A stretch of DNA of 26,922 bases from a virus. The translations under genes were made by a program, and so were the position numbers. Shown one piece after another: positions 2,725-26,922 of this stretch; the first letter of the stretch is position 1, and each line of letters opens with the position of its first letter. The notes below the pieces were generated by a model that saw nothing but the letters and a program-made list of their open reading frames with translations, did not search any database and had not been told where the DNA came from. Location: positions 1 to 26,922 of IMG/VR virus record IMGVR_UViG_3300009149_008379. One strand, given 5' to 3'.

Positions 2725-3408
2725 CTACCTCATCTTGAATAATTTGTGGAGCTGGACACCAATGCGGAATTCGTATCTCTCAAGCAAAGAGTCCCATCCC
2801 AGGAGAGTTGTTGATAACCAGTTAGCAGGCTCACCTCCTAATGCGTGAAAGAGAACAACTGGCCTTGTGTTTTCTTTTCGTATCTTCTCTAGGAACACCC
2901 TGGCGTACTCCATATCTTCTTCATCTCTGCAGATGAACTTGATCACATCTCTAGGAGCAAGAGAAGTAAAATTAGATTCCAACATCTGCTCATGCTTTCC
3001 TGTACTTGGTAATTTGAAGTCAATAGAAAGATGAGTAACATTTCTGAAAGGTTTGTTTAGCAACCAGCTTACATCCTGGGCACCATTCGTTTCAATAACG
3101 ATGGATTCTAAACCAGCTCCTCCATGCCATCCCTGTAAAGCCTGAAGAAGACTAAACATTTCTTCCTGTGGCTGTTCCAGAGGTTCGCCTCCAGTGATGC
3201 AAATATGACGAGGACGATGTGAAACGTCTTTTACAACTTCAACGATATAAGGAACTCCGACATCATCAAATTCGTCATTCTTCCAAGCCTGTAATGTATC
3301 GCATTCCGGACACTTTAAAGAGCATCCTGCGAATCGAATGAACGTAGTTACGGCACCTGCGTATAAACCTTCACCCTGTATAGTCTCAAATATCTCAAAT
3401 ACCTTCAT
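2725..3408 (-). CDS. queE: 7-carboxy-7-deazaguanine synthase QueE (radical SAM)
   Basis: 227 aa, ATG with a good Shine-Dalgarno (AAGGAG). QueE converts 6-carboxy-5,6,7,8-tetrahydropterin to 7-carboxy-7-deazaguanine, using SAM and a [4Fe-4S] cluster. Signatures: N-terminal FETIQGEGLYAG, the CX3CX2C cluster motif (C29, C33, C36) in FAGCSLKCPECDT, and ITGGEPLEQP at 71-80, which is the SAM-binding GGEP element. The length is typical of the family. It lies about 10 kb downstream of the queC-folE-queF-dpdA block, embedded among replication genes, but belongs to the same preQ0 pathway. The gene ends in TAG, and the next ATG follows immediately. Confidence 0.92.
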   Translation of the reverse strand: MKVFEIFETIQGEGLYAGAVTTFIRFAGCSLKCPECDTLQAWKNDEFDDVGVPYIVEVVKDVSHRPRHICITGGEPLEQPQEEMFSLLQALQGWHGGAGLESIVIETNGAQDVSWLLNKPFRNVTHLSIDFKLPSTGKHEQMLESNFTSLAPRDVIKFICRDEEDMEYARVFLEKIRKENTRPVVLFHALGGEPANWLSTTLLGWDSLLERYEFRIGVQLHKLFKMR

Positions 3409-3418
3409 CTCTTGCTCC

Positions 3419-3742
3419 TTATCTTACCATGTAATAACGTTGACGTCCTTCTATTCTTACATCAATTAGCCCCTTTTTCTTCAGAATATTCAAGTAGTAG
3501 TAAATGTTTATTTGCTTACTGCCATATCTATTCTCAAGTTCCTTCTTAATATCATCCACTGAAGATCTTTCATTCGTTGATATGATATTTAAAATTGATA
3601 TCGTATAACCACTCTTCACAAGAGGCTCTGTAGGAAGGACAGAAAAACCACTCCAGCAATCTAATGCTCTCTTGCAGACCTGACATTCCTTGGCTCTATG
3701 GTCGTACTTATTTCCAAAACATGACGGTACTTGTTCCATCAT
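3419..3742 (-). CDS. Small zinc-ribbon-like plus winged-helix protein, putative DNA-binding regulator
   Basis: 107 aa. Two adjacent ATGs (3742 and 3739) can start it; the first overlaps the upstream TGA as ATGA. Residues 8-29 hold a cysteine cluster (C8-X11-C20-X2-C23-X5-C29) that probably binds zinc. Residues 45-107 look like a winged helix: ISILNIIST, SVDDIKKELENRYG as the second helix, a recognition-type helix INIYYYLNILKKKGLI, and a beta wing DVRIEGRQRYYMVR. The likely role is transcriptional control or DNA binding during infection. A related cysteine cluster occurs in the 257-aa protein at 16365-17138. No close named relative is recognised. Confidence 0.75.
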   Translation of the reverse strand: MMEQVPSCFGNKYDHRAKECQVCKRALDCWSGFSVLPTEPLVKSGYTISILNIISTNERSSVDDIKKELENRYGSKQINIYYYLNILKKKGLIDVRIEGRQRYYMVR

Positions 3743-4287
3743 CCTTCCTTTAAAATATGTTTAGTTGTTGTTCTAAGCTCGTCACGTAAGTAATTTACAT
3801 CTCTTTCAGACAAGTTCAGCTCTTTTGATAAATCTGATAAGCAAACTCTTGGATTTTTCTCTAAGTTCTCCATAAAAAGAAAGCATCGAGGCGATAAAAC
3901 TTTTTTCAATGTGATAATCAGATCGTTATACGTACATTCCATCTCTGGTGTGGTTTTATTCTTTGATTGTAGAGAAGGAAACTCTTCGATGTCATCCCAT
4001 TTCTGAGTCTTATTGTATTCTTTCTGGGCAAAGCTTGTGAGGATGTCTTTAACGACCATGTAAACCCATGACGTTACCTTGCCTTTATTCTCATCAAAAT
4101 GGTACTGGTACTTGATTACTTCTTTCCAGCCTTCCTGTATCAAATCATCAGTTACCAGGAATGGGAATCTCTTGGAGAAATCAACAGACAAGCTCACAAT
4201 GATTTTAGCTATTGAAGTGACTTGATCATCAGTGACTTTGTCAAATAGACTTGTTCGTTCTTCTTTTGGTTCTTTTTCTTCAGTCAT
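3739..4287 (-). CDS. Sigma-70-like RNA polymerase sigma factor (phage)
   Basis: 182 aa; the ATG overlaps the primase stop by 4 bp (ATGA). Residues ~25-90 resemble sigma region 2: DDLIQEGWKEVIKYQYHFD, then NKGKVTSWVYMVVKDIL, matching the usual DLIQEG...FDxxKG.FxxwaY pattern of region 2.1-2.4. Residues ~128-178 look like a region 4 helix-turn-helix (CLSDLSKELNLSERDVNYL). It could redirect host RNA polymerase to phage middle or late promoters, as T4 gp55 does. A second sigma-like gene lies at 17238-17834. Assignment rests on residue patterns only; an ECF-like or other HTH regulator remains possible. Confidence 0.7.
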   Translation of the reverse strand: MTEEKEPKEERTSLFDKVTDDQVTSIAKIIVSLSVDFSKRFPFLVTDDLIQEGWKEVIKYQYHFDENKGKVTSWVYMVVKDILTSFAQKEYNKTQKWDDIEEFPSLQSKNKTTPEMECTYNDLIITLKKVLSPRCFLFMENLEKNPRVCLSDLSKELNLSERDVNYLRDELRTTTKHILKEG

Positions 4288-8105: not shown

Positions 8106-9053
8106 CTATTGAACTAGAGTTGCTTCAAAAATCATACGTACAATAGAAGCTTGTCCGCCACTGTATGTATTCTTCTCAAATATGATTATCATCTCTGCAG
8201 CACGTGCTGCCGTATCAAGACTTTTAGAATTTAGCATAATGGATTTCAGATAGCCTAGCAAAGATAATCTGACTGTTTCAGGATCAGCTTGTAATGCTTT
8301 GTAGATGTCCAGACACTTCCTCCATCTGTTTGAGGATGTGCCTGTGATAGCTTTGCATAGCTCAAGGACTTCTTTCTTTGTTGATTCTGCAACAGCGAAA
8401 ACTTCAACAGCCTCTTCTATCTCTGCCACAGTGTCGTAATCCCTGACTTGCTCAAGAATCATTATAGCTTCTCTAGGACATCCTTCGGCTACCTTAGCAA
8501 TCAAATTGATAACTTCATCATCAATGACATCAGGCATCTTCTCTATGTCAGCTATTGTTGTTAGCAAATCTCTCATTTCAGAAGGTCTTAGAGACTTAAC
8601 ACCATACTTGGCACAGCGATTCTTGATTGTCTTTATGATCTTGTCAGGATCAGTTGTACAAAACATGAAGTAGACATGAGGTGGGCAGTCCTCTATAATC
8701 TTTAAGAGCGCTTCTTGTGCGGCTTTTGTTAACTGATGTGACTCATCAAATATATAGCACTTACAACTACCAAAAAGAGCGCCTGTTAATGCTGAATCAC
8801 AAACTTCCCTGATGGAATCGATACCGCGAGTGTTTGCCGCATTCAATTCAATAAGACCCATATCTTCACACCCCAATTCTCGAGCAAAAACTCTGGCGAA
8901 TGTTGTTTTTCCACATCCTGTTGGTCCATGAAATAAATATGTGTGCGGTCTCTTCTTAGGCTTAGAAGCAACAACCTTCTGCAGGCCTGTAACTACTGCT
9001 TTGTTACCTACAATTTCTTTGAAAGTCTTTGGTCTTATTGCTTGATATAACAT
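8106..9053 (-). CDS. DNA polymerase clamp loader ATPase subunit (DnaX/RFC-like)
   Basis: 315 aa; ATG one base after the polymerase stop, with GAGGT upstream. An AAA+ clamp loader that opens the sliding clamp and places it on primed DNA. Visible: RPKTFKEIVGN at 7-17 (typical clamp-loader N terminus), Walker A GPTGCGKT at 43-50, Walker B YIFDESHQL (D103, E104), sensor FCTTDPDKI near 131, and a KNRCAKY segment (Arg146) corresponding to the SRC motif. Length suits a phage large subunit such as T4 gp44. No separate small subunit (gp62-like) is recognised in the window. Confidence 0.9.
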   Translation of the reverse strand: MLYQAIRPKTFKEIVGNKAVVTGLQKVVASKPKKRPHTYLFHGPTGCGKTTFARVFARELGCEDMGLIELNAANTRGIDSIREVCDSALTGALFGSCKCYIFDESHQLTKAAQEALLKIIEDCPPHVYFMFCTTDPDKIIKTIKNRCAKYGVKSLRPSEMRDLLTTIADIEKMPDVIDDEVINLIAKVAEGCPREAIMILEQVRDYDTVAEIEEAVEVFAVAESTKKEVLELCKAITGTSSNRWRKCLDIYKALQADPETVRLSLLGYLKSIMLNSKSLDTAARAAEMIIIFEKNTYSGGQASIVRMIFEATLVQ

Positions 9054-13071: not shown

Positions 13072-14064
13072 TTATATAAATGTAGCTTGGATAGGTTTCC
13101 AACGCGTATCCATCTCATTCAATTCTTTGTTAATTACTTTAAAATAGTGGACATTAGCTGTCTGACGAGCAAGAACTCCAAGATTTTCATCCTGTGCGAC
13201 ATCCTCAATTGTAAGACCTAACTGTTCAAGGTAATCATGGACAGCCACTTTCTCTTTATCGCTTAAGCTTCCGTAGTGCCTACTTGCTTGAGTTATGCCG
13301 CAACCTGCTGTGACGGAAACTTGGAGCTTGGAATCAATATAGCGTTTGCCAGGAAGAGGTACTCTAATCTGTCCGTAAGCTCCAGGCCGCATCCATGAAG
13401 TACTATCAGCAGTAAACCAAGGGTATCTTCTGAGAATGTCAAATGAAGTGACACCAAAACCATGCCACTTAACTCGAGCTGAACCGTCAGGATTTGTTAC
13501 ATAAGGCATAACCTGCTCCAGCCACAAAATCTTCTGCTTGGTAGTTCTATCATTCGCAGGAGATAGTCCAATGTAAAGACCTTCCTTACCTTCTGCTAAT
13601 TGCTTATCATGGTACGCCATCAACTTCTCTAACCACGCAAAGTCTTCACCCTGATGGAATACATGAACAACCTTATCAGCCGGCAGACCCTTTTCTTCTA
13701 CAAGGCACAAGAAGTTATCCCACCCTTTTGCTGCTGAAGCGAGTACTTCTTCTTTTGTAGGCACTCTCCCATACTCGCCAGGAATAACATCAACACCTAC
13801 AACTGCATTGAACGCATTGTCTTCAAGACCCTTCTTACAATATTCTGAGTAAGCGTCAAGGTCAACTTCATGTCCAAGTGTCCACGTCGAGAAGACACCT
13901 GAATCAAGAAGCATAAACCAATCTTCTTCTCTTTCTTCGCTAAGCAACCATTCATACAGTTTCTCATCTGCTTTCAGCTTTGGCCAAGCTTCCAGAATGT
14001 TCTCAGTCTTCTGAAGAAGTCCATACTGCCTTTGGAAAGTTGCTGTAGCGAAGAGAATAATCAT
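13072..14064 (-). CDS. dpdA: DpdA-like DNA 7-deazaguanine transglycosylase (TGT paralogue)
   Basis: 330 aa; the ATG overlaps the queF stop as ATGA. DpdA is a paralogue of tRNA-guanine transglycosylase that swaps guanine in DNA for a 7-deazaguanine base. The sequence shows a TIM-barrel-like pattern: FMLLDSGVFSTWTLG near 51, AVVGVDVIPGEYG near 87, VVHVFHQGEDFAWL near 132, YIGLSPANDRTT near 164, and HGFGVTSFDILRRYPWFTAD followed by STSWMRPGAYGQIRV near 201-235, the phage DpdA-like signature I recognise best. Placement beside queF, folE and queC strongly supports the role. The catalytic Asp was not assigned with certainty. A cell-type TGT acting on tRNA is less likely because of the sequence type and context. 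Confidence 0.78.
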   Translation of the reverse strand: MIILFATATFQRQYGLLQKTENILEAWPKLKADEKLYEWLLSEEREEDWFMLLDSGVFSTWTLGHEVDLDAYSEYCKKGLEDNAFNAVVGVDVIPGEYGRVPTKEEVLASAAKGWDNFLCLVEEKGLPADKVVHVFHQGEDFAWLEKLMAYHDKQLAEGKEGLYIGLSPANDRTTKQKILWLEQVMPYVTNPDGSARVKWHGFGVTSFDILRRYPWFTADSTSWMRPGAYGQIRVPLPGKRYIDSKLQVSVTAGCGITQASRHYGSLSDKEKVAVHDYLEQLGLTIEDVAQDENLGVLARQTANVHYFKVINKELNEMDTRWKPIQATFI

Positions 14065-14531
14065 ACTGTTTCAGATCCTTGCGTTTCAACAATAACACCT
14101 TCACCACGAATGTACTTTGCAATCACAACCATGCCAATACCACCACGAGGTGCAAAGTCACCATGGATTGTCATTTCATGAGGCTTAACTAACTCTACCA
14201 GGTGTGTTAGTATGTTGTTAGTTATAGTCTCCATGAAGGAACCTTCGTTCCTGTAGCTGAACATATACAGCTTGAGACCTTTACTTTCGATACACCACTC
14301 ATCAGGCGTATACTCAACGCTGATAGTAGCGAAATCAGGCTGTCCTGTCTTTGGACAAAGTGAAGTGAACTCATCTGTAAGGAAAGTTACCTGATATTTT
14401 CTTTCAGGAAACTTGTTGGGGAACTTTTCCAAAACATTAGGATCAGCTCCACCTTGGTTTGGGTAGTCGGTGTGTCCGCTACCAAGTGACTTTACACCAC
14501 TAGTATCATCAGTTTGTTTCTCAGAACCCAT
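14061..14531 (-). CDS. queF: QueF-type preQ0 reductase family protein (unimodular)
   Basis: 156 aa from the ATG at 14531, chosen because AGAGG sits 5 nt upstream and the overlap with the preceding gene is then 11 bp; an in-frame ATG at 14582 has no clear ribosome-binding site. QueF reduces preQ0 to preQ1 with NADPH. Seen: EFTSLCPKTGQPDFATI with the thioimide-forming Cys59 and Asp66, the NADPH-associated ESKGLKLYMFSYRN at 82-95, and FAPRGGIG near the C terminus. The FHE site of Bacillus QueF reads FME here (Met100, Glu101), so a conserved active-site His is missing. It could thus be a reductase with altered kinetics or a QueF-like variant with another product. dPreQ1 in DNA is the default prediction. 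Confidence 0.88.
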   Translation of the reverse strand: MGSEKQTDDTSGVKSLGSGHTDYPNQGGADPNVLEKFPNKFPERKYQVTFLTDEFTSLCPKTGQPDFATISVEYTPDEWCIESKGLKLYMFSYRNEGSFMETITNNILTHLVELVKPHEMTIHGDFAPRGGIGMVVIAKYIRGEGVIVETQGSETV

Positions 14532-14997
14532 AATAACCTCTTTTTTCTTGGCTTCGTCTTTCTCTTTCATTCTGACTCTCATATGGAAATCTTATCCATT
14601 CAACTTCCTTAACGTCAACTACACTTACATCTGCTGGTGGAGTATTGTTTGCAGGAAGATAAGATTTGTCATACAGCACTGCAAAGTGGGGAATATCCTC
14701 AATTTCAAAAAGTGCGCATAACTCATCCCTTGTCTTGCCTGTCTCAAGAATGTCGTCAACAACTACAACGTTGTCTAGACCTGTGTCTTCCAAGCAGATA
14801 TTTTTGGATACAACAGAGTAAATCTCATTAATGTAGGAAAGATGCAATGCTACTAAAAGACCACCTCTAGGCAATCCAAGTAGTAAAATGTGTTCTGTAC
14901 CTTCGAGAGCATACTCTTCCATTATCAGTGTATCTAACACCTGGAGAGATGCCATGTATTCTTCCCATGTAATGTCTTTAACTTTTGGTGTATTCAT
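14521..14997 (-). CDS. Type I phosphoribosyltransferase
   Basis: 158 aa. The start at 14997 is chosen for its ATG with AAGGA 4 nt upstream; a longer reading from a TTG at 15021 would overlap folE. The PRPP-binding motif is clear: NVVVVDDILETGKTRDEL at ~76-93, with two acidic residues and the TGKT loop. An earlier loop HILLLGLPRGGLLVA at ~36-50 fits the purine/xanthine PRTase PPi-binding region. It would transfer ribose 5-phosphate from PRPP to a base. It lies between folE and queF in the 7-deazaguanine cluster and shares 11 bp with queF. The base specificity cannot be read from sequence: guanine/xanthine salvage is conventional, a deazapurine substrate is conceivable. Confidence 0.82.
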   Translation of the reverse strand: MNTPKVKDITWEEYMASLQVLDTLIMEEYALEGTEHILLLGLPRGGLLVALHLSYINEIYSVVSKNICLEDTGLDNVVVVDDILETGKTRDELCALFEIEDIPHFAVLYDKSYLPANNTPPADVSVVDVKEVEWIRFPYESQNERERRSQEKRGYYGF

Positions 14998-15004
14998 AAG
15001 TTCC

Positions 15005-15628
15005 TTAGATACTAAGATCAACAGATGATGATAATTTTATCAAGTCGAAGAATTCAGAACGAGTTGCTGGCTCATCTCTGAATTTCCCTCTTGTTTCTGA
15101 TACAGTCATCTTACTAGTTGCATTCTTTACACCTCTAGCAGTCATGCAAAGATGCTTACCTACCATGACAACAGCAACACCTTGTGGTTTAAGAACCTCC
15201 ATCAAAGTGTCAGCTATCTTACAACAAAGACCTTCTTGGATCTGTAGCCTTGCAGCATACGCCTCAACAAGTCTGACTATCTTTGAAATACCAACTACCT
15301 TCTTGTTAGGAAGATAGCCTACATGACACATTCCATAGAAAGGTATCATGTGATGTTCACAGGTTGACCAGAAACTGATGTGGTCACACATTACAATCCC
15401 ATCAGTTAAGGACGCACAATCTTCTTCAAAGAAAGTACCTAGCACGGTTTTTGGATCATCCTGATAACCGCCATACAATTCCATGTACGATTTGACAACC
15501 CTATAAGGAGTATCTCTCAGACCTTCACGATCAGGATCCTCTCCAATTGATTCCAGCAATGCTCTGACATGACCCATAGCTTCAGGAAACTTAATCTCCA
15601 TCGCCTTCTTTTCTTCTTCAGTTGCCAT
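15005..15628 (-). CDS. folE: GTP cyclohydrolase I (FolE)
   Basis: 207 aa, close to the E. coli protein (222 aa). FolE turns GTP into 7,8-dihydroneopterin triphosphate, the first step to 7-deazaguanines (and folate). Signatures: GLRDTPYRV near 36, WSTCEHHMIPFYG with zinc/active-site C90, H92 and H93, GISKIVRLVEAYAARLQIQE near 113-132, and KHLCMTARGV with C161; all metal and catalytic residues appear intact. The ATG lies 2 bp after the queC stop. Having its own folE would raise flux of GTP into base modification during infection. The product of FolE is normally passed to QueD, which is not encoded here. Confidence 0.95.
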   Translation of the reverse strand: MATEEEKKAMEIKFPEAMGHVRALLESIGEDPDREGLRDTPYRVVKSYMELYGGYQDDPKTVLGTFFEEDCASLTDGIVMCDHISFWSTCEHHMIPFYGMCHVGYLPNKKVVGISKIVRLVEAYAARLQIQEGLCCKIADTLMEVLKPQGVAVVMVGKHLCMTARGVKNATSKMTVSETRGKFRDEPATRSEFFDLIKLSSSVDLSI

Positions 15629-15630
15629 AA

Positions 15631-16356
15631 TTATTTTTTCTCCGGACCATTTGCTACCATCAACTTAGCATCTGCTAAGACTTCTTCCCAGGATTTCACG
15701 TAATCAATAGGATCTGGAATGCCTGCTTTATCAAATGCAAGTATCCTTTCTCCACAAGCACCACACTTTCCACAGGCCTTTTCATTGCCTTTATAGCAAG
15801 TCCATGTGAGTGAATAATCCACTTGTAGCTGTTTTCCTATCTCAACAATGTCCCCTTTATCGGAATCAACGTAAGGAGCTTCCAATTCTACTTCCTTCCA
15901 GTCACAAAGTTTTGTTACAGCTTTCATAGCTTCAACAAACTCTTTCCTGCAATCTGGATATATAGCATGATCCCCAGCATGTGCTCCGTAGAATACAGCT
16001 TTAGCATCAGAGGAGACTGCGTAACCAATAGCTAACGAAAGCAATATCATATTTCTATTTGGTACCACAGTGGACTTCATTGATTCTTCCTCATAGTGAC
16101 CTTCTGGAACATCAATGCCACTTGTTAAAGAACTTCCTGCTAGCAAAGAGCTTCCTATAGAAGCCATGTCAACAATTTTATGAGAGACACCTAGCTTCTC
16201 ACAAGTCTTTGCCGCAAGATCAAGCTCTTTGGAATGTCGTTGTCCATAATTAACGCTAAGAGCTAAAACCTCAGCATATTTCCCACTGTTAAGGATGTCC
16301 CATAAAAGCGTTGTGGAATCCATTCCGCCACTTAATACTACTACTGCTTTACTCAT
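15631..16356 (-). CDS. queC: 7-cyano-7-deazaguanine (preQ0) synthase QueC
   Basis: 241 aa, family-typical length. QueC converts 7-carboxy-7-deazaguanine to preQ0 with ATP and ammonia. Seen: PP-loop [12 protein letters not shown] at 8-19, [17 protein letters not shown] near 97-113, [15 protein letters not shown] at 123-137, and the zinc site C187-X7-C195-X2-C198-X2-C201 ([10 protein letters not shown]). The active site looks complete. There is no fused glutamine amidotransferase (Gat) domain, unlike Gat-QueC of phages that make archaeosine-like dG+. AAAGGAG occurs upstream, overlapping the TAG of the preceding gene. Confidence 0.95.
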
Positions 16357-16364
16357 ATCTAAAT

Positions 16365-17138
16365 CTACTCCTTTGTCTTGTAGATAATTTCATCGCCTTC
16401 TACTGTTATTACAAATTCGAAGTCCCTTTCAGTACCAGCCCACACGCCTTTTTTCCATTCCCATACATATCCCTTAACATTCTCAAGCGCTTTAGCATGC
16501 TCAACTTCACATTCTTTTGAAATGAACTCTGCTGCTTTCTCATAAGTGATCTTTCCAACAGACGCTAGATGCTTGATTAATACATCAGCCCTTGAACCTT
16601 TTCGGAAACCTTTGAAATCGCCTTTGCTCTTAGGAGCCTCAGCAGGTTTTGAAACTGTAGTATCTTTCGCAGGATCAGGTGCAGGTGCTGGTGCTGATGG
16701 AGGAGTTTGCTTTGCTTCGCACGCTGATTTGCATGCTGTGTATTCCTCCGAGAAATGTTCTGCACAATCTTTGCATTCTTTTACTTCTGCATCCCAATGC
16801 TTTTCGAAACTAGGGCATTCTGATTTCATATTATCCTCCGATGATCTTCTTACAATTTCTGTTGAGGTTTCTCTTCGATGTTCAGGCATAGTAAGACCCA
16901 TTGCATCAAGAAGTTTTTGCATAGGATCATTGATTTGGACGCCATTAACTGTGAAATGATAGAATGATTCTTTATTCACCTCGAATCCATCATCAAGTTG
17001 TTTGAAATCTGTATAAATCTCAAACATATTAACTTGGTGATTTGAGGAGAATACTCTTGTAACTAGAATCGGATAAGGAGCAATCTTAAAATGAGCTGCT
17101 CCTATTGACATTGTAACAACACCATTATCTATCCGCAT
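16365..17138 (-). CDS. Hypothetical protein with cysteine cluster and winged-helix-like C terminus
   Basis: 257 aa, ATG with a weak ribosome-binding site. Three parts are visible. Residues 1-80 are beta-rich ([20 protein letters not shown], then [16 protein letters not shown]). Residues 105-140 hold a cysteine cluster C108-X13-C122-X2-C125-X10-C136-X3-C140 with the pattern C-P-x-F ... W-D ... E-C-x-x-C, reminiscent of the cluster at the start of the 3419-3742 protein. Residues 143-170 are a Pro/Ala linker. Residues 178-257 look like a winged helix ([20 protein letters not shown], then a beta hairpin). A nucleic-acid-binding or regulatory role is likely but not provable. It is the second gene of the operon. 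Confidence 0.65.
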
Positions 17139-17933: not shown

Positions 17934-18365
17934 CTAGGATTTTAAGGTAACAGTCCAGGTAAAATCAAAGGCATAATCAGATGTTTTCGATTGTGATGCA
18001 AAGGTCGCTCGAGCAACTAACTTGTCACCTGCAGTGAGTAGCCCTGCCTCCGCAATAGGAAATCCATTAGCTTCACTTGATCCTAATGTAGCTGTAAAGG
18101 TAACAGTGTAATTTGGAGCATCAACAGATACTGACACAGCTTTTGTAGGTGTGATTGGTTTCTGTAGGAATGTCTGGTCTGCTGCTGCAGCAAGAGTTCC
18201 TGTACCATACTGCATCTCATTCACGTAGGCGTCAGCATCACCACCAGATATCAGCTGTATTAGCTGTTCGTACATCTGATCAAGTACCAGATTGTTGGTT
18301 CGCATAATTTCTTTCCGTCTACCTGTTTTTAAGTGACGGGATGTTATTAGTAGTTCGCCTTTCAT
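17934..18365 (-). CDS. Putative small virion (tail/fibre-type) protein, paralogue A
   Basis: 143 aa; ATG one base after the acyl carrier protein stop. Homologous over its length to the 151-aa protein at 18625-19080: both start with a TxRH-x-x-(S/T)G-x-(R/K)-K-x-I element, then NLVLDQMYEQLIQLISGGD, a MQYGTGT-like 'G-(T/S)-G/D' turn, a beta-rich middle, E-A-G-L-(L/F) and a closing ARATF...W beta strand. This pattern occurs in small phage tail or fibre proteins (head domain with LxxLLSGG and 'I.E.GLF' elements). No catalytic motifs. It is the last gene of the virion module before the early promoter; an AT-rich stretch, without a GC stem, follows its TAG stop. Confidence 0.6.
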   Translation of the reverse strand: MKGELLITSRHLKTGRRKEIMRTNNLVLDQMYEQLIQLISGGDADAYVNEMQYGTGTLAAAADQTFLQKPITPTKAVSVSVDAPNYTVTFTATLGSSEANGFPIAEAGLLTAGDKLVARATFASQSKTSDYAFDFTWTVTLKS

Positions 18366-18366
18366 A

Positions 18367-18612
18367 TCAGTACTTTACCTCTCTTTTTATCAAATAAGCA
18401 ACAATCTTATTGACTGTATCTAAAGCTTCTGCTTCGTTATCTGGAATTTCAATATTGTAATCTTCTTCTATGCACATGAGCAATTCCACAACATCAAGAG
18501 AGTCAGCTCCCAGCTCAAGAATATTGGTATCCATCTCTATCGAGCTTCTTTCGATTCTAAGCTGAATAGCTACGGCATTCTTGACTTTATCTATCAAGAC
18601 TCTATTCTTCAT
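18367..18612 (-). CDS. Acyl carrier protein
   Basis: 81 aa, classic ACP size. The phosphopantetheine site is intact: LELGADSLDVVELLMCIEED with Ser38 in the DSL motif, after VAIQLRIERSSIEMDTNI and before YNIEIPDNEAEALDTVNKIV, the expected four-helix acidic carrier pattern. It would be charged by a host phosphopantetheinyl transferase and carry acyl or other thioester-bound groups. No ketosynthase, acyltransferase or transferase partner is visible nearby. It sits between two homologous virion-type genes, with 1 and 12 bp to its neighbours, inside a region rich in glycosyltransferases. A role in a virion or surface modification is inference from position; fatty-acid metabolism hijack is the alternative. 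Confidence 0.92.
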   Translation of the reverse strand: MKNRVLIDKVKNAVAIQLRIERSSIEMDTNILELGADSLDVVELLMCIEEDYNIEIPDNEAEALDTVNKIVAYLIKREVKY

Positions 18613-18624
18613 AACTAACTTCCT

Positions 18625-19080
18625 TTACACTGCGTAGATCAAAGTCCATTCAATAACCCATTCCCATCCTGCAGATTTCTTCATCTCCTGGAATACAGTT
18701 CTTGCTACCATTGTGTTGTCTGCACAAAACAATCCTAATTCCTGGATGGTTTGGATGTTATTAACTGCTGCAGGCCATGTAGCGCTAAATTTAACTGCAT
18801 AAATGGATGGATAAGAAGGAACAACACTTAACCAAACAGCAGGTATTAGATGTGTTATAGTAGTATCATTTACAGTAGGTGCGGTATCATCAGAACCAAA
18901 AGCAAGCTTGGTTATCTCATTGTTAACTAAATCACCTGAAAGTAATCTTGGTAACTGCTCGTAAGCTCCATCGACAATAAGATTTGATTGTACAATCTTT
19001 TTCTCACCTGATTCAACGTGCCGCTGGGTAATCGTGACGGCACCTCTCAAACCTAACTTTAACTTATCCTGTGCCTTCAT
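18625..19080 (-). CDS. Putative small virion (tail/fibre-type) protein, paralogue B
   Basis: 151 aa, ATG with AAAGGAG ideally spaced inside the end of the GT2 gene (17-bp overlap). It is a paralogue of the 143-aa protein at 17934-18365: VTITQRHVESGEKKIVQSNL, YEQLPRLLSGD, KLAFGSDDTAPTVNDTT, IQELGLFCADNTMVARTVF and a final WEWVIEWTL strand. The 'FGSDDTAPTVNDT' turn and 'ELGLF...VARTVF' close are typical of small phage tail-fibre or collar-type proteins. No enzymatic motif. The pair flanking an acyl carrier protein suggests duplication around, or insertion of, the ACP gene. Confidence 0.62.
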   Translation of the reverse strand: MKAQDKLKLGLRGAVTITQRHVESGEKKIVQSNLIVDGAYEQLPRLLSGDLVNNEITKLAFGSDDTAPTVNDTTITHLIPAVWLSVVPSYPSIYAVKFSATWPAAVNNIQTIQELGLFCADNTMVARTVFQEMKKSAGWEWVIEWTLIYAV

Positions 19081-19936
19081 GAGGTACTCCTTTTGTTCTC
19101 AAATAATAATGAGGAGCTTCCGCGCCTCCAATTTTATTTACAATATCAGCATACTGTAATACATCAAATCCTTGTACTCTAACTATTCGTCTTGGAGAAA
19201 CATGAGTCCAGTAAGGTCTCATTGTCCAAGGAGGTCTTTTGGCCTTATCTTTATAGATAGTAGTACCACCTTCTCCGATACCTATATGCTGTACTTGATA
19301 AGGAGGACTGACTTTTGTCCAGTAAACCATCCCTGCTTTCGTTATCTCTTGTATCTGAGTATCTGCAAATCCTTTATAGTGGCCTCCAAAATGGTTCCCC
19401 ACCTTCTGCAGATGGTCTTTACGAAAAAACATATGTGCATCACCAGTTAATGTAACGTTAGCAAAACCTTTATCATCAATGATTTGTATATCACCGACAT
19501 GACCAAGCGCATGCAGAGTGGCTCCTCCTATATTCTGTGTCTCAGACAACATCTCGTAATCTTTTATGGCATCTGTAATAGTTTGCTTAGTTATGATAAC
19601 ATCGCTATCCAACAGCATAACGTAATCTGATGTGCTGAAATCCTTGTTCTTTAGAAATCTGTCTATCGCTTCTTGTCGACGCTTGCCAATACGAGCATCA
19701 GGGTCAGTTGTTTCTTTGTCCATCGGAACATACAATTTATCTGAATGATTTTCTAAGAATCCTAGCATGCGAGAATCCTTGCTACCATCATCAATGGCAG
19801 AAAATTCAAAGTCGTATCCTTCTACATCAGGACTATTGTATAACCAACGCAAACACAACTCCACATGATAGAATCTATCAAGAGTAAATATGTTTACACT
19901 TATTTTTATTTCATCATCCTTTGCATTCGTTCGCAT
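19064..19936 (-). CDS. Glycosyltransferase family 2 (GT-A fold)
   Basis: 290 aa. Residues ~10-230 form a GT2 domain: ISVNIFTLDRFYHVELCLRW at the start, FEFSAIDDGSKDSR (DDG at 49-51), ARIGKRRQEAIDRFL, and the metal-binding DxD as VMLLDSDVIIT (DSD at 110-112). A later GDAHMFFRKDHLQKVGN and YKGFADTQIQE suit the ED-type acceptor region. It would transfer a sugar from a nucleotide sugar with inversion. The ATG at 19936 overlaps the upstream GT9 gene by 31 bp and has no clear Shine-Dalgarno, so the start is less sure. Acceptor unknown. Confidence 0.85.
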   Translation of the reverse strand: MRTNAKDDEIKISVNIFTLDRFYHVELCLRWLYNSPDVEGYDFEFSAIDDGSKDSRMLGFLENHSDKLYVPMDKETTDPDARIGKRRQEAIDRFLKNKDFSTSDYVMLLDSDVIITKQTITDAIKDYEMLSETQNIGGATLHALGHVGDIQIIDDKGFANVTLTGDAHMFFRKDHLQKVGNHFGGHYKGFADTQIQEITKAGMVYWTKVSPPYQVQHIGIGEGGTTIYKDKAKRPPWTMRPYWTHVSPRRIVRVQGFDVLQYADIVNKIGGAEAPHYYLRTKGVPHEGTG

Positions 19937-21126
19937 TGGAAAGTAGGATTTCCTGCTATCTGCATAACTTTCTGGAGTGAAATTTTAATATCGTCTACTG
20001 ACAACTCTAACATTCTACGACATCCAGTACAGCAGTCATCACCGAAACCTTTAGATATTGCTCTGTTACAAGGCATCTTGCAGCGTTCTAATTCTTTTTC
20101 GTACTGGACAACTTCTAAGAAAGGATAGAAATCCTCATATGGAGCTGAATCAGTTAGTGAAAAGATACCGACAGTGGGCAATCTAAGTGCTGCCGCTAAA
20201 TGAAGTATACTTGTATCTACAGTTATTATTATGTCACATTGCTCTGCTATGGCAGCAGATTGTAAGAAATCGCAATTGAACCACTCCAGACTATTATTCT
20301 CTAACAGAACTTCTGGCTTGACGCAATCAAGATATGCTACATTCATATTCATATCAAATAGATACGTCAGAAGCTCATTAATAAATTCAGTTGTTAAGTT
20401 AGACGCAGGCTTTGTTCCTCTTGGAGCAAACCCCACTAAAGGGCCAGACGAAGAAGATGGAAATGCTTCTGCAATCATATGAGTAGCTTTTAAACGTTCT
20501 TCTGGAGTAGATGTCCATTCTGGGATAGCTTTTGTAAGGACAGAACATCCAGCTTCTGCTGCAAATATCTGGCTTCGAGTGTATTCAATGCGATCTTTCT
20601 GTGTCTTCTCGTAAAGAGTTGCAGGGCACCATAAATCAACAAAACCATTTTCTGGTATTTCAAGGATACTTAAATATAGATCTCTTGTGTAATCCGGCTT
20701 CTCACCACGTGCACGCCTGTGAGATACTAAGTAGTCAAGAGGTCCGACTCCTATTACGGAGTCAACATATTTTAAATGCTCACCAATGCTAACAAACTCA
20801 TTTGGCACACATATATTAACGACAGCATCAGGATGCTCGATCTTGCATTGTGCTGCGGCACCTCCCATACTAATAATATCACCTACACCGCCAGCTTCTC
20901 TGACTAGGAATATTTTCTTTCTGGAAGGTTTGTGACAAGTTCCTTTTCTAGGAATCAATTCCATTCTACGTGTTGGTGTAAGTTTTGATAGTATTCTTGC
21001 ACCGCATTCAATCCAAAGCTTCTTGAATTCACAAGCAACAGGATCACATTCCTTAATGGATTTCATTACTCCTATTGAATGCTCTCTGCAAGGACCTCCG
21101 CAAGCATGCCGATAGTTACATTTCAC
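19906..21126 (-). CDS. GT9 heptosyltransferase-like protein carrying the tail of a SPASM domain at its N terminus
   Basis: 406 codons from a GTG at 21126. Residues 1-45 (KCNYRHACGGPCREHS, then ECDPVACEFKK) are not part of a glycosyltransferase; they are the distal cysteine motif of a radical-SAM SPASM domain. Residues ~70-400 are GT9/GT-B: IFLVREAGGVGDIISMGG (nucleotide/acceptor loop), LVGFAPRGTKPASN and DIIITVDTSILHLAAALRLP (donor site), followed by a Cys-rich end. The frame is open upstream back to a TAG at 21163-21165, beyond which the same frame encodes the radical-SAM protein. No good Shine-Dalgarno precedes the GTG, nor the internal ATGs at 21066 (AGGAG only 2 nt away) and 20964. It may be translated by readthrough or only as a truncated glycosyltransferase. 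Confidence 0.72.
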   Translation of the reverse strand: MKCNYRHACGGPCREHSIGVMKSIKECDPVACEFKKLWIECGARILSKLTPTRRMELIPRKGTCHKPSRKKIFLVREAGGVGDIISMGGAAAQCKIEHPDAVVNICVPNEFVSIGEHLKYVDSVIGVGPLDYLVSHRRARGEKPDYTRDLYLSILEIPENGFVDLWCPATLYEKTQKDRIEYTRSQIFAAEAGCSVLTKAIPEWTSTPEERLKATHMIAEAFPSSSSGPLVGFAPRGTKPASNLTTEFINELLTYLFDMNMNVAYLDCVKPEVLLENNSLEWFNCDFLQSAAIAEQCDIIITVDTSILHLAAALRLPTVGIFSLTDSAPYEDFYPFLEVVQYEKELERCKMPCNRAISKGFGDDCCTGCRRMLELSVDDIKISLQKVMQIAGNPTFQCERMQRMMK

Positions 21127-21165
21127 ACATTTTGCATTCTGATACCATCTGTTTTCAACCCACTA
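21127..21165 (-). other. In-frame amber codon interrupting a radical-SAM/SPASM-GT9 fusion
   Basis: The radical-SAM gene ends SEQDRA then TAG (21165-21163). The same frame continues without another stop as WVENRWYQNAKC and VKCNYRHACGGPC, the C-X2-C...C-G-G-x-C signature that SPASM domains need. The next codons run on into the GT9 domain. A one-base change of TAG (for example from CAG or TGG) would give one 785-residue protein. TAG is an ordinary stop at several other genes here (for example queE, clamp loader and the 143-aa protein), so TAG is not globally reassigned. Confidence 0.85.
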
Positions 21166-22263
21166 TGCTCTGTCCTGTTCGGAAACTCCTCCATCTGATA
21201 ACTTTCCTATTAATGAGTTCATTTCTCTATGGCAAGCAAATATAAAACCATCAGGATTTACAGACATGAAACCAACGCCTGCACCACACTCACTTGGTGA
21301 ATGCTGTTTGTAAAGCAATCTTTGCGCATAAACCATGATGTTTTTGAAGTATGCTGTCTTTCCTTGACTCAATCTATCTACTAAGTAATCAGCTACATCA
21401 ACATACTCTTGACGTAGTGACCCTTCTATCTCAGTAATGGCAAACATATTCTCAGGAGGTATCTTTACACAGGATGTTTCAGTTAGAAATGCAGGCTCAA
21501 CAGAGATGTTTGTTCCATACCCTTTGTCACAAAGCTGGTTCAGATATTTTGTTCTTTTTAACAACTGCGTATTACTGGGAAGGTATGTGGCTCGCAAGGA
21601 TACTTTCTTGACACTTGCTTCTTTTAGTAACTTCAAGCCTTTTAGTACTTTGGCATGTGTAGGTTTACCATTCACATCTTTGCGATTCTCATCATGCAAA
21701 GAAGGAGGACCATCAATAGATACTACTAATGAGAAGTTTTCTGCCGCAAGAAATTCTGCTATCCTCTTTGTAATCAAGCAACCATTTGTTGTTAATGTAA
21801 AACTTACCTTTGCACCAAATTTAGCACGAGCGTATGAAACTACTTGCTCAATAAGAGAAAAGTTCAACAAAGCTTCTCCTCCAAAGAAACCTAACTGGAA
21901 TCCATAACGTTCTACTACTCTTGGATCTATAAGAGTATCAATGGCTTCTTGTGCTGTATCAAAATCCATCACTGAAGACATTTCATCATAGTACTGTGAG
22001 ACATAGCAGTAACTACAACGTAACTGGCAAGCATGAGTGACTTCTAACACCAAAGCTCTCAAATGCTTATTAGGGCAGATAGGGTACTGAGGAGCTAATG
22101 ATGCAGGTATAGGCAACTCACTCTCATCACCTTCATACAGATCAAGTGTATTAGTATCCATGAAGATGGATTGGTCAGAATAGGTGAATTCCTGGTATCC
22201 AGTTGTTCTTGTAGATCGTGTTCTGAACTTATTCAAACATTCAATGTTATTATGGTGTTTCAT
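21163..22263 (-). CDS. Radical SAM/SPASM peptide-maturase-like protein, truncated by an in-frame TAG
   Basis: 366 aa from the ATG at 22263, chosen because GAGGA lies 5 nt upstream and the ATG is one base after the previous stop; the longer reading to 22353 would overlap that gene by 89 bp. Radical SAM core: LVLEVTHACQLRCSYCYVSQ with C79, C83, C86; FFGGEALLNFSLIEQVV; LTTNGCLITKRIAEFL; VVSIDGPPSLHDENRKD. This set is typical of SPASM maturases that crosslink or modify peptides. The first SPASM cysteines are present (SECGAGVGFM, C326; FIFACHREMN, C344), but the final C-X2-C...CGGxC lies past the TAG in the next ORF. Translated alone it would lack an auxiliary-cluster half and probably be inactive. 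No precursor peptide is evident nearby. Confidence 0.88.
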   Translation of the reverse strand: MKHHNNIECLNKFRTRSTRTTGYQEFTYSDQSIFMDTNTLDLYEGDESELPIPASLAPQYPICPNKHLRALVLEVTHACQLRCSYCYVSQYYDEMSSVMDFDTAQEAIDTLIDPRVVERYGFQLGFFGGEALLNFSLIEQVVSYARAKFGAKVSFTLTTNGCLITKRIAEFLAAENFSLVVSIDGPPSLHDENRKDVNGKPTHAKVLKGLKLLKEASVKKVSLRATYLPSNTQLLKRTKYLNQLCDKGYGTNISVEPAFLTETSCVKIPPENMFAITEIEGSLRQEYVDVADYLVDRLSQGKTAYFKNIMVYAQRLLYKQHSPSECGAGVGFMSVNPDGFIFACHREMNSLIGKLSDGGVSEQDRA

Positions 22264-22264
22264 A

Positions 22265-23956
22265 TTATTCCTCATCTTCAAATAACCATGACATCTCAAC
22301 ACGTAGGATCTTACATATGGACTCGAACTTTGGTTGATGCCCTTCGTCTCCATAATATCTTACAGGAACACCAAAAGGATTCCATAATTTATTATAGCGT
22401 ATTTTAGTTGAACCATCTCCTGACCACACTAATTGTGGCAAACCACATAAGGATGCTAGATGCATTGGACCGCTTGAAGGTCCGATTATTAATCTGCTAC
22501 TAGCCATGACATCAAACAATTCAACTAAAGGAATATTTCGTAAATCTTTTGTTCCTTCTACATGATAAGCTCCTGTAGACGTGCCAATGGAAGCGATAGA
22601 AAGGTTACTGAAAGAATTAACTAAAAGTTTCCATTTCTCAATGTCCCAATTGTGCTTTCCGGAACCATTTTTTGGTGTACTTCGAGCATGCAATAAAATA
22701 TCATGCTTACAATCTTCTTTAAAAGTACCGTATTTTATGAAATCTTGCTTGGAAAATTCTTTCGAAGGTTTCCATGTGTTACTCAACTTTCGAAACCCCA
22801 TATTAAATTCACCTGATCGGTATGAGGTATGTTCTATTGTGTCTCGAAAATGCTTTCCAGGGTCACCTCCATTGCATTTCCAACAATCAGTATTTGTGCT
22901 TCCTGGATCATGTTCAATGTATTCATCGCAAAAATCATCATATAGACCTTTATGATCAGGGCGTCCTATAACGATTGTACGATCTACTTGTTTCGATAAT
23001 CTTCTAATGTATCCTTGCCAATGGAATAATTCCCATCCAAGCTCACCAATCCAAGGACCCGCCAAGAGCACTCTTCCTTGTTCTCCATGTAATGATTCTT
23101 GGATGGTTCCGTAACTACCATACTTACCAATCATCTCTTGCGCAGTGTTTTTCCATACCTTATTAATTAGAGAATCTTGATTAGCATTTGAATACCAAGG
23201 CATTATTCTATCTTTCCCTTGTCCACAGAAATGAAGGATCTTAATATTCTGGATGTACTTCATAAATAATTTTGAATGTGGAAAGATGAAATTATACATC
23301 GGAGGTAGCTTAAATAGATGTGTATTTAACTGCCTTCCAAAATATCTATTGATAATAGGCTGATCAGCTAAAAAAGTCTTTCCTTTTGGTACCATGCTAA
23401 TAAGTTTGTTATACACCATAGGGTTGAGATATTTGTTATCCACAATCATGAAACCTGTATTAATTTCAAGACTATTCCATCTTTCAGCACTTAAAGGAAG
23501 ATTAACAGGTAAATTATTTAGAACACTTTCATTCAGTTTAACATAGTGTCGTGCTGCAAGAAAACCAGCGTCTAACGATAGAAGAAATGAAAAGTCTCTA
23601 AAGCAGTATGCGTCTGCATCGATAAATACCATCTTGTCATATTTGTATTCTTTAAAAGCTTCAAGTGTCAAAAATGCAGGTCTATGATCTTCGACCTTTG
23701 TTGCTACATCTGTGTAAGGTAAATTAGGTGTATTATCAAACTGAATATTAGGAATAATTTTCTTTAAGTAATCTCTGTTCTTCTTTGAAAGCGGAGCAAT
23801 AATGTCGTTGTAAATAACTTTCACATCACATGAAGGTAGACTCTTGAAATTCTTTCGTAAAGAATATAGCATGACACAAGCACCTGGGAAGTAATTGTCA
23901 TCACAAACAGTACAGAAAATAATCTTGTTAGGAGCAGATGCTTTTCTTTGTATCAT
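22265..23956 (-). CDS. GT8-GT9 two-domain glycosyltransferase
   Basis: 563 aa from the ATG at 23956; alternative starts are a GTG about 21 nt upstream, overlapping the preceding stop, or a codon at 24019. Residues ~10-255 are a GT8 (glycogenin/LPS galactosyl-type) domain: IIFCTVCDDNYFPGACVMLY, MVFIDADAYCF with DxD at 113-115, LEINTGFMIVDNKYL, and the closing HFCGQGKDR metal/phosphate motif at 242-250. Residues ~290-560 are GT9/GT-B-like: LLAGPWIGELGWELFHWQGY and LIIGPSSGPMHLASLCGLP. Fusion of a retaining and an inverting transferase suggests two successive sugar additions to one acceptor. It would act in the cytoplasm; acceptor and donors are unknown. TAA stop directly before the radical-SAM gene. 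Confidence 0.83.
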   Translation of the reverse strand: MIQRKASAPNKIIFCTVCDDNYFPGACVMLYSLRKNFKSLPSCDVKVIYNDIIAPLSKKNRDYLKKIIPNIQFDNTPNLPYTDVATKVEDHRPAFLTLEAFKEYKYDKMVFIDADAYCFRDFSFLLSLDAGFLAARHYVKLNESVLNNLPVNLPLSAERWNSLEINTGFMIVDNKYLNPMVYNKLISMVPKGKTFLADQPIINRYFGRQLNTHLFKLPPMYNFIFPHSKLFMKYIQNIKILHFCGQGKDRIMPWYSNANQDSLINKVWKNTAQEMIGKYGSYGTIQESLHGEQGRVLLAGPWIGELGWELFHWQGYIRRLSKQVDRTIVIGRPDHKGLYDDFCDEYIEHDPGSTNTDCWKCNGGDPGKHFRDTIEHTSYRSGEFNMGFRKLSNTWKPSKEFSKQDFIKYGTFKEDCKHDILLHARSTPKNGSGKHNWDIEKWKLLVNSFSNLSIASIGTSTGAYHVEGTKDLRNIPLVELFDVMASSRLIIGPSSGPMHLASLCGLPQLVWSGDGSTKIRYNKLWNPFGVPVRYYGDEGHQPKFESICKILRVEMSWLFEDEE

Positions 23957-23973
23957 GACTTGTTCTTCGTTGT

Positions 23974-25377
23974 TCACATTCTGTCTCTTATATGCTGTTT
24001 GCCTGTAGGTCCTGTCCAATGCATTGTGACTAGACCTCCTCTGTCACCTTCAATTCGCATCCTGTGTTCCGTCTTTGGCAAAGGGTGTATTGGCATTCCC
24101 ATTTCATACAATGTTATAGAAAGTACTTCATGGTCTCCAAAGTAGTAAGTTCTAGGCGCTGTTATAATTTTTCTACACCACTCCTCAAGAATAACATTAC
24201 CATGTTCAACAGCTAAAACTCCTGAATCATATAGCTCTGCATCCTTTTCCATATGTTTCCTGAAAGCTCTTGGATTATGACTATCAAGCCCTGCTGCAAT
24301 TTTACCATCTTTAGCGTAGTCAAAAAACTTGTTTAGATTTCCTCTCACTTCAACATCAAGATCAAGCCATATTACTTTCTTGAATGGAGCCTTCAAGATA
24401 GCAAAAGGTTTTCGGAACCAGCCTTCTACAAAGGAAGCTGTAACTGGAATGACTTTGCCATGCTTGAGACAGATATCCTTGCATCTGTCTGATATTCCAA
24501 AGTCAGCGAAAACAACTGGATAATTGTTATGTCGTTTGTAATTTTTAATCCACCATTCAATCATGTCTTCATGAACAGGAGCAACACCTACCATGACACC
24601 TTTTGGATGCTCTATTAAAGGTTTCCATTCACATTGTGTTGCATCAGTAGCATGAAGTAACTGACCTTTTGTCTCAGGAACTCTTTGCTGAGAGTATTGT
24701 AATGATTCTTCCACATCAACGTAATCAAGAAATCTGTTGATAGGTGAATCAGGAGTGCAAGATGTTATCTTAATGTTATATCGTGCAGCATCTTTGGCGA
24801 AAGATTTTAAGAAGAGTACTTGCTGTTTATACAATTTCCTATTGTATTCCCGTTGTTCATCAGTAAGAACTCTATCATCATAGTAATCTTTGTCTCCACC
24901 AAAATCAGTACCTACTAAGAAAATGTACTTGGCACCCATCCATATCATAATATGTAGTGCAATAGCTAATGTGTTACCTGTCCATATAAAGATAGTATCA
25001 TGTGCTCTTTTGTCTAACATTGTGGAAGGATCTTTACAGGGAGTACAATCAGCAAAGTAAGTTTGGGGGCAATCCTTTATAGGATAAGCATTACATCTTT
25101 GATTCTGAAAACCTCCTCTTACTATTTTGATAAAAGGTTCCCACCATAAACTTCTTTCATAGCATAGAGGAGTGTCCATACCTACCCATACATCAGGCTT
25201 TATATGAGGATACGATGTATTTATGCCGAAAGTAAAAACGCCAGGAACTTTAAAAGATTGGGGATTTACATTTTTTAATGATGGTCCAGGACAACATAGA
25301 TATGCATCAGCACCTAAATCGCAACGAGCAAAATGTGCTTTTACAAATCCGTTTCCACAATCATACCATAAAGACAT
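23974..25377 (-). CDS. MptE/DUF115-like plus GT8 two-domain protein
   Basis: 467 aa, ATG with AGAGGA upstream. Residues ~20-215 resemble the DUF115/MptE-like Rossmann domain found with surface-glycan genes: YLCCPGPSLKNV near 27-38 (GPS loop), VWVGMDTP near 63-70, TGNTLAIALHIMIWMGAKYI near 133-152, and LVGTDFGGDKDYY. Residues ~255-460 look like a GT8-type GT-A domain: KVIWLDLDVEVRGNL with DLD at 339-341, AAGLDSHNPRAF, ELYDSGVLAVEHGN, FGDHEVLSI, and the closing TMHWTGP His motif. It is probably a bifunctional sugar transferase or glycan-assembly enzyme. The stop is 17 bp before the next ATG. The DUF115 assignment is by loop pattern and order only. Confidence 0.75.
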   Translation of the reverse strand: MSLWYDCGNGFVKAHFARCDLGADAYLCCPGPSLKNVNPQSFKVPGVFTFGINTSYPHIKPDVWVGMDTPLCYERSLWWEPFIKIVRGGFQNQRCNAYPIKDCPQTYFADCTPCKDPSTMLDKRAHDTIFIWTGNTLAIALHIMIWMGAKYIFLVGTDFGGDKDYYDDRVLTDEQREYNRKLYKQQVLFLKSFAKDAARYNIKITSCTPDSPINRFLDYVDVEESLQYSQQRVPETKGQLLHATDATQCEWKPLIEHPKGVMVGVAPVHEDMIEWWIKNYKRHNNYPVVFADFGISDRCKDICLKHGKVIPVTASFVEGWFRKPFAILKAPFKKVIWLDLDVEVRGNLNKFFDYAKDGKIAAGLDSHNPRAFRKHMEKDAELYDSGVLAVEHGNVILEEWCRKIITAPRTYYFGDHEVLSITLYEMGMPIHPLPKTEHRMRIEGDRGGLVTMHWTGPTGKQHIRDRM

Positions 25378-25443: not shown

Positions 25444-26619
25444 TTAATCGCTATTAGTGAATTCCCACTCATATACACAAAAAGTGAATACTACCAGAAA
25501 ATCAAGGATGTCTTCGGTTGGGTTACTCGGCCCCGCACCCTGAATGGTGAAATTACATGTCGTTATAGGTGATTGAGTATAGTTACCTGGTGTTCCACCG
25601 TTACACTGATACACCTGATGTGACCCCGCAAAGCCACTCAGATACTCAGTAGCGGCTGTAGACCCTGACCCTGACCATATCTTATCCATTACACGTTTCG
25701 TAGCAATAGTCGTTGTGCCTGGAACATACGTAGCAAAAAAACTCCCATCACCGACATCAATAGCCACGTCCATAAACCCCGTCACTATTTGGCTTTTGTG
25801 TTCCCAAAAATACATCTGAGCATACATATCAACGGAGACACCTAGTATTACTGGTGCACCTTCTATTGCGAATGTTGGCAACGCGACCATAGGGGGTTCG
25901 GACCAAACATCTTCTGCATAACGGTTTACTGTGTCGTAATTTCGTCTTGCTTCGTTGTACACAAAGATTTCGCCGAAAGTGGCGGATTTTGCGGATGAAG
26001 ATTCGAACGCGTGTGCAGCGATTGCCGCAGCTCTTCCATCAACAAAACCACTTCCATTACCCCACTTTTGGGCCACAGGGTCCTGATAAATCAGGCGGTC
26101 CCCAGGACTGATTTGAAAGGTGCTTACCCGCGCTTTCAATAGGGAAAGCGTTGCTCTTAGTGATGCGAAAATATCTTCAGTGAAGAAATCACCGTTGTCC
26201 ATCCGACCGAATGTGTCTACTATAACTCCTCCACCATCTCTATACTTCCTCGGCCAACCATTGGGATACCCAGCGTCTGACAGTAGAGTAGCGACGGTAT
26301 AATATTCTACAGTATAGGTTCCTGCCTCATTGTCAACTACCACATATGTACTAGTAGGTAGCCTGACATAGCTAGGCGCCATAGCTTCAATCTCATCCTG
26401 CATGCTGCGCCACCCATACCAATCCCATTCATCATAAGGAGGGGTGATAATTTTGAAAGGGTCAAGATTCTGAATACAGTCACCTTCCGTAACAAGTTTA
26501 TCTTTTGCATGGGACCTACCAATCAATTGCGCTCTTTCCGATACTGCTTGTATGAGTTCATTTACTTTACCAGCATCTTGCCAATTATTCCATTGTATAG
26601 TAAAAGGAGTACTGCTCAT
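25444..26619 (-). CDS. Putative tail fibre or adhesin protein with distinct composition
   Basis: 391 aa from the ATG at 26619, which overlaps the collagen-like gene stop as ATGA; a longer reading to 26646 is unlikely. No known domain is recognised. The N terminus ([20 protein letters not shown]) is Trp-rich, residues ~100-130 are beta-rich ([19 protein letters not shown]), the middle is Ala/Ser-rich and the end ([14 protein letters not shown]) resembles the W-rich end of the preceding collagen-like protein. It is visibly richer in G+C and CG dinucleotides than its neighbours (for example 25840-26060). Following a collagen-like tail protein, a receptor-binding or fibre-tip role is likely. Confidence 0.55.
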
Positions 26620-26922
26620 GTGTACACCGCCTTTATCCAGTCCCATTCAACATCGAAATCATCACTTGAGCTCTTCTGAAGCACCATGTATTGATCTCCT
26701 CCTGTAGGTAAAGGATACTGTGGGCCTGTTGGGCCGGTGATACCAGTTATGCCAGTAGGGCCGGTAGGTCCAATCCCTGTAGGTCCGGTTGGGCCTGTAG
26801 GGCCGGTAGGTCCAATCCCTGTAGGTCCGGTAGGGCCGGTAGGTCCAATCCCTGTAGGTCCTGTAGCTCCAGTAGGTCCGGTTGGGCCGGTAGGGCCGGT
26901 GGGTCCAGTAGGTCCTGTAGCT
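26616..26922 (-). CDS. Collagen-like tail fibre protein, C-terminal end (runs off the window)
   Basis: Partial; 101 codons plus a stop are visible. Residues up to about position 26715 are Gly-X-Y repeats, mostly GPTGPTG with periodic GIGPTG interruptions, which fold as collagen triple helices. The remainder ([20 protein letters not shown] and [15 protein letters not shown]) has the pattern of the junction that follows collagen repeats in phage tail proteins, similar to the 'vLxKxSxxDyDxeW' element. Its TGA overlaps the next ATG (ATGA). It forms a trimeric stalk, presumably carrying the 391-aa protein or its own tip at the distal end. Confidence 0.85.
26712..26922 (-). repeat. Tandem GPT-type collagen codon repeats
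   Basis: The stretch is built from near-identical units such as cctacagggattggacctac and ccggccctaccggacctac on the minus strand, encoding GPTGPTG with GIG breaks. Repeat number is likely to vary between relatives by slippage or recombination. Confidence 0.8.

Follow-up and report, generated by a model that had tools for sequence, protein, structure and literature searches.

An amber codon in the 26,922-nucleotide stretch of phage DNA analysed here (IMGVR_UViG_3300009149_008379; hereafter the window) interrupts a gene that encodes a putative radical SAM/SPASM maturase fused to a GT9 glycosyltransferase. With a probability of roughly 85%, we attribute this stop to a nonsense mutation of recent date or to an error in the sequence, not to a programmed switch. 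A real nonsense mutation in the phage or in a variant of it appears slightly better than an even bet, and a wrong consensus base in the metagenome assembly is possible but less probable. In this view, one nonsense codon, private to the window, interrupts the SPASM domain of the gene where the residue is not conserved. There is nothing unusual about the amber codon as such; the interrupted gene is more interesting, and the cassette around it merits a study of its own.

One open frame across the amber codon

The longest radical SAM ORF runs from 22353 to 21163 on the minus strand and, as the first-pass annotation had described, ends at the TAG at 21163-21165. Beyond this stop, a further 418 codons of the frame are open, up to a TAA at 19906-19908 (minus strand); at the composition of the window, the chance of so long an open stretch is about 1e-13. 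The accompanying claim that this extension encodes the rest of a SPASM domain and a GT9 domain was borne out as well, with the GT9 domain scoring above the Pfam cut-off. Read across the TAG, the frame gives an 815-residue protein comprising a radical SAM core, a complete SPASM motif and a GT9 domain (Table 1). Translation likely starts at the ATG at 22263, residue 31 of the longest ORF, which is favoured by its better ribosome-binding site and by its position at the stop of the upstream gene.

The radical SAM motif CX3CX2C is present (C109-x3-C113-x2-C116), and the core matched PF04055 with 67.3 bits. Across the TAG, the frame holds a canonical seven-cysteine SPASM arrangement, C356-x12-G369-x4-C374 followed by C409-x2-C412-x5-C418-x3-C422 and C441. 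The TAG lies between the second and third of these cysteines, two preceding and five following it. The motif CX9-15GX4C ... CX2CX5CX3C ... C is complete in relatives and in the window frame read across the TAG; in the window record it is split by the TAG and does not occur in one polypeptide. By sequence, the closest solved structure is CteB (5wgg), whose alignment covers residues 98-454 and so extends across the TAG. We set aside an AlphaFold model of the fusion, built from three sequences, because of its low quality in the SPASM region (mean pLDDT 59.9).

Relatives with both radical SAM/SPASM and GT9 parts were recovered by two degenerate-pattern scans of viral contigs. Radical SAM/SPASM relatives found in phage records were only distant, a scan of genome contigs gave only a distant radical SAM match, and searches with the fusion protein, the DNA polymerase and the A1 alignment found no close copy of the window phage. 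Two of the viral contigs encode the fusion as one unbroken frame, G001 (IMGVR_UViG_3300028920_000039, 135 kb) with 804 aa and G004 (IMGVR_UViG_3300036761_003285, 58 kb) with 881 aa. Nearly all of the window is colinear with the latter, at approximately 31-62% protein identity. For the GT9 part, identity was about 46-47% to G004 and 40% to G001. In an alignment of 23 homologous frames, which include two pairs of near-identical phages, every frame has a sense codon at the TAG column. The column itself is variable (Q, P, M, E, K, V, A and S), with Q (codon CAG) in G004 and P in G001. The homologue comparison proposed in the first-pass annotation thus upheld its reading of the interrupted frame as one polyprotein, and supports the view that the radical SAM, SPASM and GT9 parts form one gene. 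In the other phages in which both were seen, the two enzymes are encoded by adjacent genes, and the border always follows the SPASM domain and never falls inside it. The pattern that the first-pass annotation had named as a refutation, two separate complete proteins in homologues, holds for part of the family, but at a border after and not within SPASM.

Table 1. Features of the interrupted gene and its surroundings in the window (positions as window coordinates)
Feature	Position	Strand	Basis
RS-SPASM-GT9 (RS, radical SAM) fusion gene, complete frame to TAA, interrupted once by TAG	19906..22263	-	unbroken in G001 and G004
Radical SAM core, residues ~98-263, C109-x3-C113-x2-C116	21565..22062	-	PF04055, E 2.5e-18; CteB 5wgg alignment
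SPASM part 5' of TAG (C356, G369, C374)	21166..21288	-	homologue alignment
In-frame TAG, residue 397, within SPASM domain	21163..21165	-	sense codon in 23/23 aligned homologues
SPASM part 3' of TAG (C409, C412, C418, C422, C441)	21031..21162	-	homologue alignment; CteB alignment crosses TAG to residue 454
Internal ATG, residue 430, AGGAG 3 nt upstream; candidate restart for GT9-only product	21064..21066	-	ribosome-binding-site score
GT9-like glycosyltransferase domain	19924..20916	-	PF01075, 30.8 bits (cut-off 22); GT9 part of G004/G001
GT2-like glycosyltransferase, next cassette gene	19064..19936	-	48% identity to G004, 44% to G001
tail151, small phrog_5417 protein (annotated as of unknown function; tail role inferred)	18625..19080	-	
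tail143, phrog_5417 protein, weak similarity to baseplate wedge subunit; ends in TAG at homologous C-terminus	17934..18365	-	
GT8 and GT9-like protein, between GT8-like gene and radical SAM gene	22265..24019	-	domain match
GT8-like glycosyltransferase of the cassette	23974..25377	-	domain match and relatives
Collagen-like (GPT-repeat) protein, C-terminal end, cut by contig end	26619..26921	-	
TAG-ended genes matching G004 homologue ends	1861-2724, 2725-3408, 8106-9053, 16365-17138, 17934-18365		G004 homologue comparison

Origin of the stop and use of TAG in the phage

Conservation does not drop beyond the TAG. Within SPASM, identity to G004 is 63% before and 54% after the stop, and the deviations of the window in the GT9 part fall within the range of the family. 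The window deviates at one of 45 columns that are invariant in the other members, which themselves deviate at zero to two. Neither a frameshift nor a further lesion was seen in the fusion gene. As the gene displays no other decay, the stop should be recent, a base error, or suppressed. We prefer a recent mutation or a base error to suppression, since neither needs a further assumption.

The first-pass annotation had offered three explanations, namely readthrough, a nonsense mutation and an assembly error, of which the latter two fit the data. Programmed or suppressor-dependent readthrough, which would yield a short product with the radical SAM part only and a long radical SAM-SPASM-GT9 enzyme, is compatible with a frame that is open and undamaged beyond the TAG; efficient suppression, too, would keep the downstream half intact. 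The stop, however, is conserved in none of the 23 homologues and lies in a variable column, and the short product would hold only half a SPASM domain. Folding of the 123 nucleotides that begin with the TAG is no more stable than that of shuffled sequences (z -0.11), and stimulation of readthrough by RNA structure was rejected on these grounds. The search for suppressor tRNA-CUA genes, suggested as a check, lent no support either: there is no tRNA gene in the 27-kb window, which is a fragment of the phage, and none in G004, and no resolved tRNA of G001 or of the related phage G007 carries a CUA anticodon, the anticodon of one G001 tRNA not being determined. Taken together, we consider readthrough improbable, although a suppressor tRNA might be encoded outside the window, in the rest of the phage genome or by its host. 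Both G001 (near 14.5-16.2 kb) and G007 (near 114 kb) carry tRNAs together with a tmRNA-like gene.

Decoding of TAG as an amino acid (code 15 or a similar code), throughout the phage or in its late genes, has a precedent in gut phages: the TAG-recoded phage phAss-1 has TAG inside 41 ORFs and encodes three suppressor tRNAs (PMC10607447). The window shares with phAss-1 and other code-15 phages such as the crAss-like phages an in-frame TAG within a phage gene. In contrast to them, it has one such codon and not dozens (a single in-frame TAG in about 7,850 codons), still uses TAG as a stop, and holds no suppressor tRNA that we could find. TAG terminates seven of the 30 window genes, five of which end within one or two positions of where their G004 homologues end. 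This confirms the earlier view that TAG is an ordinary stop elsewhere and that whole-genome recoding is unlikely. The same annotation had left room for recoding of late genes only, but the late gene at 17934-18365 terminates at TAG at the homologous C-terminus, and its G004 homologue also ends in TAG. No phage-encoded peptide-chain release factor (PF03462) was found in the window, G001, G004 or G007. From TAG usage and the C-termini of homologues, we conclude that TAG is an ordinary stop in this phage and reject recoding, whether genome-wide or of late genes, as highly improbable. Establishing that the amber codon is ordinary averts a false claim of recoding.

Alternatively, the locus might consist of two genuine genes, one for a radical SAM protein that terminates at the TAG and the other for a GT9 protein translated from the ATG at 21066 by way of a ribosome-binding site of its own. 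The first-pass annotation had stated that no start of the second ORF has a proper Shine-Dalgarno sequence; this did not hold, as the ATG at 21064-21066 is preceded at 3 nt by AGGAG (duplex energy -6.1 kcal/mol). A GT9-only product from this ATG is therefore possible, and radical SAM/SPASM and GT9 proteins are indeed separate in many relatives. In those split relatives, however, the first gene retains the whole SPASM domain, whereas in the window the stop would deprive the first product of this domain and the second product would start within its remnant. Nor is the ribosome-binding site distinctive: at this place G004 has nothing comparable (-3.1), a site with nearly the same score (-6.2) occurs close by in G001, yet inside an unbroken gene, and approximately 9% of the internal ATGs in the window score equally well. 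Two genuine genes seem about as improbable as readthrough.

We therefore return to one gene with a private nonsense codon. If the TAG is real, translation would halt after half of the SPASM domain, leaving a product without five of the seven SPASM cysteines. These cysteines are ligands of the auxiliary clusters, as established for CteB and anSME. Their loss implies that neither auxiliary Fe-S cluster would form and that the maturase would be dead. Without a restart of translation at the ATG at 21066, GT9 activity would disappear as well, so that the TAG would abolish the maturase and probably also the glycosyltransferase.

Relation to known enzymes and the surrounding cassette

The radical SAM core and the layout of the SPASM cysteines are shared with CteB, the SCIFF maturase (TIGR03974; PDB 5wgg, 5why), but the match to TIGR03974 (187 bits) lies under the cut-off of 425. 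Unlike CteB, the window protein is fused to GT9, and no SCIFF-type precursor was seen in the window. The best NCBIfam match was to the PapB-type ranthipeptide maturases (NF047865, E 7.8e-56), again under the cut-off (189.7 against 340 bits); these differ from the window protein, which has a C-terminal GT9 domain and sits among glycosyltransferase and tail genes. Similarity to the CXXX-repeat radical SAM maturases (TIGR04115) was significant but distant (E 6.7e-22; 78.5 bits, cut-off 350). A parallel to this family is that several phage relatives adjoin CxxxC-repeat proteins, but in the window the neighbours are tail proteins of the phage, and CxxxC arrays are absent from the window, G001 and G004. 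The glycosyltransferase domain exceeds the Pfam gathering score of the heptosyltransferase family GT9 (PF01075) and, unlike ordinary GT9 enzymes, is fused to a radical SAM/SPASM enzyme in a phage late region.

As judged from gene order and sequence similarity, the fusion gene is part of a conserved, little-known phage cassette. The order radical SAM/SPASM, GT9, GT2 and one or two phrog_5417 domains was found in the window, G001, G004 and the loci L131, L139, L065, L117, L153 and L134, of which L117 is G007 and L134 and L153 are nearly identical matches. The GT2 is fused to a phrog_5417 domain resembling tail151 (Table 1) in L139, L117, L153 and L134. Between the two phrog_5417 genes of the window lies an acyl carrier protein gene (18367-18612; PF00550, E 3.7e-14); in G004 and G001 the two phrog_5417 genes overlap with no such gene between them. 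No homologue of the GT8 and GT9-like gene at 22265-24019 was found in G004.

The GPT-repeat protein at 26619-26921 adjoins several glycosyltransferase genes and is a possible target of threonine glycosylation. Elsewhere in the window (2725-3408 and 13072-16356), several genes resemble, by eye, those for 7-deazaguanine synthesis and its insertion into DNA (QueE-, QueC-, FolE-, QueF- and DpdA-like); only the gene at 14061-14582 matched a family (phrog_5949). These genes suggest that the phage DNA is modified.

Repeat-bearing tail proteins

Proteins with at least eight CxxxC units are encoded upstream of radical SAM/SPASM genes in seven retrieved loci. In L117, two such proteins lie directly upstream at 1397-2566 and 2521-3786; others occur directly upstream in L139, L153, L157, L098/L121, L093 and L056, and a 1050-aa frame in L157 has 57 CxxxC units. 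In these proteins the repeat is often CExxCQxx. Several have an N-terminus similar to Tail_P2_I/TIGR02242, two of them above the Pfam cut-off and the rest weakly. At the corresponding place, G001 and G004 encode proteins with many cysteines that combine a Tail_P2_I-like N-terminus (by eye) with collagen-like GxT repeats. In the radical SAM/SPASM protein of L117 (3753-6182), the CxxxCxxC radical SAM motif is itself interrupted by an insertion that matches Hint/intein and LAGLIDADG domains.

A CxxxC protein was present in six of eight independent radical SAM/SPASM loci with enough upstream DNA compared with four of 148 loci without radical SAM/SPASM (Fisher p 3e-7, indicative only, as the loci were gathered by sequence patterns and are non-random). 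A first reverse search for CxxxC proteins was discarded, since its matches were mostly low-complexity DNA. A second pattern scan was aimed at C[EQ]xxC repeats and yielded 71 loci that contain a repeat frame of this kind, many of them simple low-complexity repeats; about 11 have a radical SAM/SPASM homologue in the retrieved piece, compared with none of 48 loci without a repeat frame.

From this gene neighbourhood we tentatively propose, at somewhat less than even odds, that the intact gene belongs to an undescribed system by which phages modify the tail proteins of their virions, and that the amber codon marks the natural loss of this maturase in a single phage. The radical SAM/SPASM maturase and two or more glycosyltransferases would act on repeat-bearing tail proteins in a RiPP-like manner, but on a structural substrate. 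Candidate substrates are the CxxxC arrays in some phages and cysteine-containing collagen-like GxT repeats in the clade of the window. In the literature searched, no description of a phage radical SAM/SPASM tail cassette was found. The ordered cassette, from a repeat-bearing tail protein through radical SAM/SPASM, GT9 and GT2 to small phrog_5417 proteins, is kept across a range of diverged phages, some of whose tail proteins have CxxxC repeats by the dozen. Should these proteins be the substrates of the enzymes, phages would apply RiPP-type chemistry to their own virions.
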